NCBI GenBank assembly: GCA_017524805.1
Contig: JAFXUX010000031.1
Coordinates: 1-64,000 of the forward strand
Length of the DNA stretch: 64,000 bases
Source: Candidatus Methanomethylophilaceae archaeon
GTDB taxonomy: Archaea > Thermoplasmatota > Thermoplasmata > Methanomassiliicoccales > Methanomethylophilaceae
Direction of reading: 5' to 3'
In this document: positions 49,037 through 64,000 of the stretch, piece by piece
How the letters are laid out: each line of letters starts with the position of its first letter
Numbering within the stretch: position 1 is the stretch's first letter
Translations under genes and position numbers: made by a program
Notes under the pieces: generated by a model
What the model was told of the DNA's origin: nothing
Databases searched by the model: none
The model's input: only the letters and a program-made list of their open reading frames with translations

Positions 49037-49050
49037 ATATTTTTAATTGC
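49037..49050 (+). promoter_or_regulatory. TATA box of the NIF3-Orc1-Ncs6 operon
   Basis: GATATTTTTAATTG is centred 27-28 bases before ATG 49072, giving a leaderless start. Confidence 0.6.
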
Positions 49051-49071: not shown

Positions 49072-50034
49072 ATGAAGATATACGATGCCTATAGGATGGC
49101 CATCGAAGCCGGGATCTCCAAGGACCCGCGCCCTCAGGCAGAGATTCAGAGGGCCCTGTCCAAGGCGAAGGAAGCGTATGACCGCCTTCCCGAGGACAGG
49201 AAGGATCTTTTCGATCCCGAGCGCCTCTGGAATCCATATGCCGATTCCCGTTTCTCCGTCATGGCCGAGGAAGCCTAGGATCTGGAGGCGGAGGCCATCA
49301 TGTGGGGCATCGACATAGGGCCGGCGGAGATCCTGCTGGCCGACAGGCTCAGGGAGAAAGGGAGAACGATTTCTGCGGTGGCCGCCCACCATCCGATCGG
49401 GACCGCCCGCACATGTTTCCCGGAGGTCGTGAGTTTGCAGGCCGATCTCTACCACAACGCAGGGGTGCCGATAAACATCGCCGAATGCGTCATAGCGCCG
49501 AGGACCGAGGAGGTTCTGAGGGGTGTAATGGGATCCAACTACAACCAGGGGGCGGACGCGGCCAGGCTTCTCGGGATCCCTCTGTTCAACGTCCACTGCC
49601 CTGCTGACAACATGGTCCAGAGCTATCTGACCGATCTTTTCGGCAGAGTCAATCCTTACAGGTTATCAGACATCATCGACGCCCTTTACACGGAGCCGGA
49701 ATACCGCGATGCAGCGAGGTTCAACTCTCCTCCGAAGATAATGGTAGGCAATCCGGATTCCCGCTGCGGGAAGGTGATCTGCAAGATGAACGGCGGGACC
49801 TCGTCCCCCAAGGAGATCTATGAGAAGCTGGCTTGGGCGGGCGTCGGAACCGTAATCGGAATGCATTTTCCGGACAGCCATCTCGAAGAGGCCAGAAAGT
49901 TCGGCGTGAATCTGGTCATATCCGGGCACATGTCCTCGGATTCTTTGGGCGTCAATCTCATATGCGATATCTGGGAAAGAGAGGGGATAGAGATCATCCC
50001 CTGCTCAGGATTCACGCGCCACAGCAGGAATTGA
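49072..50034 (+). CDS. NIF3-family (DUF34) metal-binding protein with in-frame amber codon (possible pyrrolysine)
   Basis: 321 codons including TAG at codon 69 (49276-49278) and the TGA stop at 50032-50034. Both sides of the TAG are in one frame and both are coding. The first 68 codons begin with KIYDAYRMAIEAGISKDPRP and have their own TATA box at leaderless distance. After the TAG come DLEAEAIMWGIDIGPAEILL and the NIF3 metal motifs AAHHPIGTAR, VHCPADNMVQSYL and SGHMSSDSLGVN. NIF3/DUF34 proteins are widespread di-metal proteins of unsettled function. In a pyrrolysine-using methanogen the TAG would be translated; otherwise the gene is broken or restarts at ATG 49300. The orc1 start lies 1 base after the stop. 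Confidence 0.8.
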
Positions 50035-50035
50035 G

Positions 50036-51202
50036 ATGTTCGAGAGAGGCTCCCGCATAATCCGCGACCCCAAGGTCTTCGATTACGACTACGTACCTCC
50101 GAAGCTGATCGGCAGGGATGAGCAGCTGAGCACGATGGAGCTCCTCTTCCGCCCTCTTGCGGAATACGGAAGGTCCTGCACCGCCGTTCTCATGGGTCCG
50201 GTCGGAACCGGAAAGACCGCAGCCGCGAAATGCTTCTGCAGGGACCTGGCCGAGCACTGCGCCAAAAAAGGCTCGCCCATAGAGGCGATCTTCGTCAACT
50301 GCAGGGCGAGAAACTCCGAGGCGGCCGTGCTCCTCCAGATGGTCCAGCATTTCGACAGAGGGTTCCCGGACAGGGGTTTCTCGCCCGACCAGATGTGGAG
50401 GGCGCTCAGGCAGCAGATATCGGGTGAAGGGAAGGATATAGTCATAGTTCTGGACGAGGTCGATGTTCTCCTGAAGAAAAGCTCGATGGATCTGGTGTAT
50501 CAGATATCGCGCTTTACGGAAGGCGGTCCGGACATAGGCCGCTCCGTATCGCTGGTCATGATCTCCCAGGAGCCGCTGTTCGATCTCTTGGACGAGGCTT
50601 CATTCTCCTCTTTCCGCAGGACGAACTCTGTCATCTTCGACAGATATGACATGCCGGAGCTGAGGGAAATAGTCCTCCAGAGAGCCAACGCCGGGATATT
50701 GCCCGGAAGGATAGGGGACGAGCCGATCGACATGATCGCTGAATCCGCCTCCGAATACGGCGACGCCAGGATGGCGATAGAGCTTCTGGACAGGGCCGCT
50801 AATATGGCCGAGGGAGAGGGAGCCGACGAGATCGATGCGGAGCATGTGCGCGGAGCGAAGGCCATGATATACAGCACAGTGTCCGAATCCAAGCTCAAAA
50901 CATTGGACAGGAGCAGGATGCTGGCTCTGCTGGCCGTTTCCAGGGCGATAAGAAAGCAGACGTCGATAAGCATCACGGCCGCGGAGAAGACTTACGCCGT
51001 TGTCTGCGAGGAATACGGGGAGACCCCGAGGAAGCACACCCAATTCTGGACCTACATCCAAGACATTGAGAAGCTGGGCGTCATCAAGACGGCGGTCGTG
51101 AACGAGGCCAGCGGCAGGACCACGAGGATATCCCTCCCGGGAATCCCGTCTAAGGTCCTGGCCGAGAAGGTCGAAACCTTGATCGAGAAGGCTTCCGAAT
51201 GA
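50036..51202 (+). CDS. Orc1/Cdc6-family replication initiator
   Basis: 388 residues. AAA+ ATPase that marks archaeal replication origins and loads MCM. Walker A is GPVGTGKTAAAK, Walker B is VIVLDEVDVLLKK, sensor 2 is in EYGDARMAIELLDRAA, and a C-terminal winged helix follows (about 310-388). It sits second in an operon behind NIF3 and overlaps the next gene by 4 nt (ATGA). Archaeal orc1 genes often lie beside an origin, but this copy is inside an operon and no origin-recognition repeats are apparent nearby. Confidence 0.93.
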   Translation: MFERGSRIIRDPKVFDYDYVPPKLIGRDEQLSTMELLFRPLAEYGRSCTAVLMGPVGTGKTAAAKCFCRDLAEHCAKKGSPIEAIFVNCRARNSEAAVLLQMVQHFDRGFPDRGFSPDQMWRALRQQISGEGKDIVIVLDEVDVLLKKSSMDLVYQISRFTEGGPDIGRSVSLVMISQEPLFDLLDEASFSSFRRTNSVIFDRYDMPELREIVLQRANAGILPGRIGDEPIDMIAESASEYGDARMAIELLDRAANMAEGEGADEIDAEHVRGAKAMIYSTVSESKLKTLDRSRMLALLAVSRAIRKQTSISITAAEKTYAVVCEEYGETPRKHTQFWTYIQDIEKLGVIKTAVVNEASGRTTRISLPGIPSKVLAEKVETLIEKASE

Positions 51203-62012: not shown

Positions 62013-63383
62013 ATGCTCCATGCGATTGAAATGCAGGAAATATGCCAGTTCATGAGGCCCCACGGGGAAGAGGGGAAGAAGGTCATTGAGGAGATGATAG
62101 AATCCCACAAGGACCAGATCGAGTGGGGCGTGCAGCAATTCCCGGAGATCCATCCGGAGAGGATCCTGGACATAGGGTGCGGAGGCGGGAATTTCTCGCG
62201 TCTGCTTCTTGAAAAATATCCCGGTTCCAAGGTATACGGGCTGGACATCTCCGAGACTTCCTTAGAATACTGCAGGGAATACAACGGGAAATACGTCGGC
62301 GAGGGGCGTCTGGAGCTCACGCTCGGAGATGTAATTGACATGCCATACGATGACGGGTTCTTCGACCTGATCGTCTCGAATTCCAGCTATTTCTTCTGGC
62401 CAGACCTCAGAGGGAGCATGAAGGAGATCGCCCGCGTGCTGAGAGAGGACGGGCTGGTCTGCATAACCACGGGCTGCCATTTCGAGAATCATTCCGACGC
62501 TGAAGGCGAGGAGTTCTGCGACGGGTTCCGCGTAGTCACCGGATCGGAGATGATGAGCTGCTACGAAGGGGCGGGGCTCAGATACCGCGCATGCGTAGGT
62601 CCCGGAGGCAGGAAATGCGCCTATTTCGGCAGGAAGGGAACCGACGATGAAGAAGGGATAAGGCAGCACATGCTCCCCCGCGGCGAGGAAGGGGAAGCGG
62701 TGCTGAAGAGCATGAACGATGATCACAGGCCACAGATACAGTGGGGGATAGACCATCTCCCAGAGATCCGCCCTTCGAAGATACTCGATGTGGGATGCGG
62801 CGGAGGGGTGTTCATCAGGCTCGTCCTGGAAAGGTATCCCGAGGCCAAAGGATTCGGGATAGATCTGTCCGAGCTTTCGGTGGAGCATGCGAGAGCCTTC
62901 AACGCCGATCTGGGTGACAGGGCAGAGTTTGAGATTGCCAATGTGGAGAGGCTGCCGTTCGGGGACGGGGAGTTCGATCTCGTAGTGTCCAATGCGAGCC
63001 ACTTCTTCTGGCCGAACCTCGCCGAGGACATCAAGGAGGTGGGCAGGGTCATCAGGACGGGAGGCACGCTATGCTTCACCGCCGGGATACATTACGAGAC
63101 CAAGCCCGCGGAAGAGGAGATGAAGGGCGAAGGCGTGAGGAATTACGCCATCGACAGCGAGATGATCGGGATGCTTGATGCGGCCGGAATCGACGCGGAA
63201 TGCTTCGCGGATCCGGAGAGCGGAAGGTATGTCGCATATGTGGGGATCAAAAGGCGACGATATCGGAGTCTCATCATCAATGAATGCCTGTACTCCAGGC
63301 TTTTCCTCTACCAGCAGGTCAAGGACACGAGGGTGGAGGCGGATGTCTTCAGGTTCCCGTTGGCGTCTACGTTCAGGCCGTAG
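62013..63383 (+). CDS. Fusion of two SAM-dependent methyltransferase domains
   Basis: 456 codons. Domain 1 (about 1-205): LDIGCGGGNFSRLLLE, GLDISETSLEYC, DVIDMPYDDGFFDLIVSNSS. Domain 2 (about 206-418): LDVGCGGGVFIRLVLE, GIDLSELSVEHA, VERLPFGDGEFDLVVSNASH. Both are paralogues of the single-domain protein at 59659. Domain 2 should end at VGIKRRR, where the single-domain protein has VKRRRA and stops; here the frame runs on 40 codons into antisense adhesin sequence and meets TAG at 63381. ATG 62013 is preferred; a TTG at 61947 would add 22 residues. Confidence 0.8.
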   Translation: MLHAIEMQEICQFMRPHGEEGKKVIEEMIESHKDQIEWGVQQFPEIHPERILDIGCGGGNFSRLLLEKYPGSKVYGLDISETSLEYCREYNGKYVGEGRLELTLGDVIDMPYDDGFFDLIVSNSSYFFWPDLRGSMKEIARVLREDGLVCITTGCHFENHSDAEGEEFCDGFRVVTGSEMMSCYEGAGLRYRACVGPGGRKCAYFGRKGTDDEEGIRQHMLPRGEEGEAVLKSMNDDHRPQIQWGIDHLPEIRPSKILDVGCGGGVFIRLVLERYPEAKGFGIDLSELSVEHARAFNADLGDRAEFEIANVERLPFGDGEFDLVVSNASHFFWPNLAEDIKEVGRVIRTGGTLCFTAGIHYETKPAEEEMKGEGVRNYAIDSEMIGMLDAAGIDAECFADPESGRYVAYVGIKRRRYRSLIINECLYSRLFLYQQVKDTRVEADVFRFPLASTFRP

Positions 63384-64000
63384 TTGCTCAGGACGCTCTG
63401 GGCCACTGTCGAGTCCGATCCGCTCACGTCGACCCCGTTGACGGAGAGGGATTTGACTGCCCAGGTGACGTTGGCGGGCCCTGCGGTCTTGGCGGTCGGG
63501 AAGGTCGAGGCGGTTCTCTGGACGCTGTAGACGTTGGGGGTGTTCTACCTGGCGACCTTTTCCTCGACGACGGCGGTGATGTCCCTGCTCCCTGCGGAGG
63601 TGCCGGTGAGGGTCTGGTGGAAGACGTAAGTCCCGGTTGCCGTCGGCTTCCCGGTGATCTTCCCGGTGGTGGCGCTGATGGTCAGTCCGATGTAGGATGT
63701 CCAGGCGCTGGTCGCGGTCCCGCCGTTCTTGCTCATGGTGGTCGTGACGGTTCCGGAGGTCGGGAACGCGGGCGCGGTCAGCTTGGTGGTGCCCTTGATC
63801 GCATAGATGGTGTAGTTCTGGGCGTCGACGGAGGCCGGGTTGGAGACCCCGACGGTCAGGGTGGTGCTCACGCCGAATCCGGGGCCGTTGGCGGGCTGCA
63901 TGGTGGCGGTCCCCTCGGAGACCTGCGTGTATCCGCTGGAGGTTTGGCTGTACTTGCTCGGAGAGACCGACGTGCTCATGAAGTTAGTCGCGCTCGCGTA
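63308..64000 (-). CDS. Large adhesin-like surface protein, C-terminal part (partial) with in-frame amber codon
   Basis: The minus-strand frame is open from the window edge (the listed ATG 63979 is internal) and continues without TGA or TAA to TAG 63308-63310, crossing TAG at 63545-63547. Upstream of that amber is a Ser/Thr-rich Ig-like repeat: LTISATTGKITGKPTATGTY then HQTLTGTSAGSRDITAVVEE. Downstream come 78 more residues of the same composition (SLSVNGVDVSGSDSTVAQSV, NYGLNVDANGNLKTSAS). Either the first TAG is read through or it truncates the protein at 63548. Such repeats belong to surface adhesins. The 3' end collides with the fused methyltransferase gene. Confidence 0.6.

Follow-up and report, generated by a model that had tools for sequence, protein, structure and literature searches.

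Our analysis of a window of 64,000 nucleotides (the whole stretch of DNA considered here), which belongs to an assembly of 1.95 Mb in 47 contigs with Methanomassiliicoccales genomes, many of rumen and gut origin, as its nearest named relatives, suggests that a conserved NIF3-superfamily housekeeping gene carrying an in-frame amber codon is intact, and that UAG at its codon 69 is very probably translated as pyrrolysine by PylS and tRNA-Pyl(CUA) to yield a protein of 320 residues, the TAG having most likely arisen from a lysine codon by a nearly neutral substitution. This reading draws on what the sequence itself presents, that is, the TAG, the pyl cluster of the genome, a conserved full-length frame, purifying selection along that frame and the use of TAG as a sense codon in dozens of genes; from these we infer that the gene is expressed and that codon 69 would be decoded, with some efficiency, as pyrrolysine. 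The features of the locus are as follows.

49040-49047, plus strand: TATA-like element TTTTTAAT, about 25-32 nt before the ATG at 49072, recognized from the sequence and from the nearest relative, G094
49072-49275, plus strand: codons 1-68, a conserved N-terminal region with invariant D18, R20, N54, P55 and D58
49276-49278, plus strand: TAG codon 69, predicted pyrrolysine, in the loop after a short helix (residues 65-68)
49279-50034, plus strand: codons 70-320 and TGA, the NIF3 core, with H106-H107 and H286-xxx-D290, supported by the 3rxy profile match, fold and dN/dS
50036-51202, plus strand: Orc1/Cdc6-type gene (Pfam Cdc6_lid, Cdc6_C and AAA), starting 1 nt past the NIF3 stop

The original prediction had placed a TAG at codon 69 of a frame that is the same on both sides and ends in TGA, and reading of the whole frame bears this out with the coordinates exact: translation of 49072-50034 gives 320 residues followed by TGA, the TAG being the sole internal stop, and there is neither a second stop nor a frameshift anywhere in the frame. 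Dicodon scores are typical of coding sequence before the TAG as well as after it (32.8 upstream and 139.7 downstream). The TATA-like tract at 49040-49047 is retained in G094, and many orthologues possess an AT-rich tract at a similar distance; it is probably the promoter element of a leaderless or short-leader transcript starting near the ATG at 49072. Among 45 loci tested, the cdc6 gene lies directly downstream of the NIF3 gene in all 39 relatives with a match.

The metal site of the NIF3 superfamily is marked by an HH motif together with a C-terminal H-xxx-E/D motif, and the putative metal-site residues H106, H107, H286 and D290 are invariant in the 49 sequences of the family collected here. 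A profile of the family matches PDB entry 3rxy, a NIF3 protein, over residues 70-314 (E 1.8e-38), and the structure predicted from the 49 sequences (mean pLDDT 96.1) likewise finds 3rxy as its best fold match in the PDB (TM 0.70/0.81), with YbgI, HcgD, SA1388 and similar entries as further matches at E < 0.001. A search with the Pfam and NCBIfam NIF3 models yielded zero matches even at E 10. The protein is thus, as judged from the 3rxy profile and the fold search on which the label rests, a divergent subgroup of the NIF3 superfamily. It shares with 3rxy, from Sphaerobacter thermophilus, the core fold and the HH plus C-terminal H-xxx-D/E residues, but its group carries in addition a conserved N-terminal stretch, about 70 residues long, that the 3rxy profile match does not cover; methanogen HcgD (3wsd) has the same core fold with only distant similarity (14% identity). 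In the confident model, residue 69 is predicted to lie in a loop, after the helix and before a strand formed by residues 75-79.

A match to the gene was found in 87 of 100 genomes of the family, mostly across codons 1-320, and none of the 17 good genomes of the genus lacks it; distant relatives with 43-50% identity, including metagenome-assembled genomes labelled Clostridia and Actinomycetota, match residues 1-319. Such wide matches over the entire length argue that the open frame is not due to chance. It had been considered at the outset that orthologues might all begin at the equivalent of ATG 49300, past the TAG. In the loci read they begin instead at the equivalent of ATG 49072, and they are full-length and collinear. 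Comparison with the nearest species, G094, gives low dN/dS values both before the TAG (codons 1-68, 0.066) and after it (codons 70-320, 0.043), that is, strong purifying selection in both halves.

The search for pylS, pylT and pylBCD that the original prediction had called for found them all: contig C25 carries, in order and in one cluster, the gene for tRNA-Pyl(CUA) (pylT) followed by pylS, pylB, pylC and pylD, with PylS above its curated cut-off and PylB, PylC and PylD above theirs. A search of the genome for the N-terminal domain of PylS (TIGR03912) was negative, which is no argument against pyrrolysine, since a shortened PylS has been reported for this order (PMC3941956). The same contig harbours the methyltransferase genes mtmB, mtbB and mttB, which served as positive controls and exhibit TAG at codons 201, 355 and 334, respectively, within full-length family matches. 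The release factor aRF1 (G000:C8:57010-58206) retains ordinary NIKS and YxCxxxF (YRCDSQF) motifs despite the wide use of TAG as a sense codon.

The meaning of TAG was then judged across nearly the whole genome, read in stretches (1,950,363 bases), with genes called from dicodon scores after training on long open reading frames. Under the standard code, 87 of 1694 coding ORFs end in TAG, and coding continues past the stop in 56 of these 87 (64%) versus 133 of 1392 (9.6%) for TGA and 33 of 209 (15.8%) for TAA (Fisher p 5e-32 and 6e-16 for TAG versus TGA and TAA, respectively), these counts being approximate as they come from a simple, purpose-made gene caller. When the first 30 codons past the stop are required to be open and coding-like, the fractions are 55%, 6% and 13% for TAG, TGA and TAA. 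TAG may thus be a true stop in at most 31 of the 1694 called genes (1.8%), and behind these 31 TAG-ended ORFs without coding continuation a back-up TAA or TGA is only somewhat commoner than behind TGA. The genes with coding continuation include mtmB, mtbB, mttB and the gene for RNA polymerase subunit A'', and also those for TsaD, citrate synthase, FeoB and an ABC ATPase, in which the TAG is located inside a Pfam match. By this count TAG is largely a sense codon in this genome.

Several individual loci deserve mention. The tRNA-modification gene tsaD/Kae1 (G000:C6:57447-58427, minus strand) contains an in-frame TAG at codon 119 that is private to this species. A pooled short-window search of the relatives returned TAG-containing matches in several of them for citrate synthase, a PHP-domain gene and others, the TAG being counted anywhere in the match, and no TAG match for NIF3 codon 69 or tsaD. 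Within the window itself, a minus-strand, secreted-looking gene (63146-64000, extending to contig position 64198) possesses in-frame TAGs, the first at 63547, and its tail is overlapped by a plus-strand, methyltransferase-like gene that ends in TAG at 63381; because of this overlap, at least one TAG around 63381 may act as a stop.

Of particular weight is the gene for subunit A'' of RNA polymerase (G000:C7:52161-53633, minus strand), in which codon 100, as numbered in this genome, is an in-frame TAG. The TAG occupies the same alignment column in 7 of the 23 genus members aligned (G000, G094, G065, G090, G100, G080 and G089), which form one group by sequence similarity and share about 71% of the protein sequence; the remaining 16 exhibit AAG (13), AAA (1) or ATG (2). 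Retention of this TAG across species argues that amber decoding is constitutive there, and that TAG would be read efficiently as well as constitutively throughout the seven-species group.

Codon 69 of the NIF3 gene presents a different picture. Its TAG is private to this species, for which there is a single assembly, and the nearest species (93% identical) has AGA, so that conservation of the TAG is unusable as evidence. Among 28 aligned relatives the codon specifies lysine in 15, arginine in 10 and methionine, leucine or glycine in the rest. The position is the 50th most variable of the 320 columns and borders a three-residue insertion found in closer relatives, that is, it lies in a variable, indel-prone loop. 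The sister species G080 possesses its own in-frame TAG at codon 5 of the gene, where others encode aspartate or glutamate; with one TAG at codon 5 and the other at codon 69, the genus has thus acquired two independent TAGs in the NIF3 gene, each at a site of its own.

Could the TAG be a recent nonsense mutation, such that NIF3 is a young pseudogene, or ends at codon 69 and leaves the cell without functional NIF3? Since the TAG is private to the species and maybe young, and since a young pseudogene would still display a low dN/dS, that ratio alone does not decide against a very recent loss. The 320 codons are, however, free of any second lesion, and the 8 amino-acid changes assigned to this species' branch, as compared with 11 on the sister branch, represent no excess. 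Moreover, every good genome of the genus keeps the gene, its order with cdc6, from which 1 nt separates it, is conserved, and the cell possesses tRNA-Pyl and decodes TAG as sense in dozens of its genes, RNA polymerase A'' among them. We therefore regard a pseudogene as very improbable. A sequencing or assembly error, with a sense codon such as AAG being the real one, is about as improbable: a single AAG to TAG substitution would be enough in the one assembly available, but random errors would not favour TAG, and continuation of coding is enriched for TAG over both TGA and TAA. The recurrence of the A'' TAG in independently assembled species also speaks against errors, although both arguments hold for the class of in-frame TAGs and not for this particular base.

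Two other readings appear weaker still. Near-cognate suppression, in which UAG would be read as an ordinary amino acid and not as pyrrolysine, might be favoured by the mostly lysine or arginine residues aligned with codon 69, but the dedicated tRNA-Pyl(CUA) and PylS, together with the three methyltransferase genes that have TAG at the usual place, make it most implausible. Least tenable is a protein that begins past the TAG. The ATG at 49300 (Met77) is indeed the first one after codon 69 and opens an ORF of 244 codons, but (i) residues 1-76, which include the five invariant N-terminal residues, remain conserved among relatives with 43-50% identity, (ii) they are under purifying selection, (iii) Met77 is predicted to fall within the strand 75-79, and (iv) the TATA-like tract is positioned for 49072.

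Hence, translation of UAG at codon 69 as pyrrolysine in an intact NIF3 gene is the reading that we adopt. In this lineage UAG would be a standing sense codon that specifies pyrrolysine, and a lysine codon (AAG) at a tolerant position of a variable loop would have drifted, nearly neutrally and by one substitution, to TAG, a change that would be tolerated because TAG already was a sense codon. It is then needless to assume a recoding element or a NIF3-specific role of pyrrolysine. With aRF1 exhibiting ordinary motifs, some termination at codon 69 is possible. A functional role for Pyl69 was considered and is unsupported, the position being variable and adjoining an indel. The original prediction of a candidate pyrrolysine NIF3 protein is thus strengthened by the pyl genes and the orthologue starts, while its emphasis on NIF3 has to be corrected: the codon is species-private, probably neutral and one of about 56.

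In-frame amber codons outside methyltransferase genes have been predicted for this order before, and NIF3 is a new example: 16 predicted pyrrolysine genes beyond the methyltransferases and 1.6% TAG stops in 'Ca. Methanomethylophilus alvus' (PMC4153887), and, counting the methyltransferases, 46 genes that contain an in-frame amber codon in ISO4-H5 (PMC5011839). Our genome shares with both the order, the pyl system, a very low use of TAG as a stop and the presence of one in-frame TAG each in conserved genes of diverse kinds, roughly half of which have TAG-free homologues in sister genomes; it differs in its approximately 56 genes with in-frame TAG and in the A'' TAG common to seven species. Neither the table of genes for M. 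alvus (PMC4153887) nor the text on ISO4-H5 (PMC5011839) names NIF3. A literature search combining NIF3 and pyrrolysine found nothing. Kivenson et al. reportedly described, in Science in 2025, an archaeal code that assigns every TAG codon to pyrrolysine, with M. alvus among the archaea concerned. Our genome resembles that code in the genome-wide use of TAG as a sense codon in pyl-bearing archaea, but differs in that about 31 ORFs may end at TAG.

Taken together, it is likely that among the gut methanogens of this clade UAG in practice specifies pyrrolysine, as a sense codon, in genes that serve basic cell functions, that is, in A'' in seven species and in TsaD and NIF3 here, even with ordinary aRF1 motifs. 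A private TAG at a variable lysine/arginine site is what would be expected from drift once amber is sense, and whenever a pyl-bearing genome shows a TAG in frame, the whole genome is the best background for judging it; here, annotation with the standard code would break up about 56 genes. If our reading is true, these cells would depend on pyrrolysine for transcription and growth, beyond the use of methylamines, and the A'' TAG common to the group offers a direct way to test whether an essential process has this dependence.
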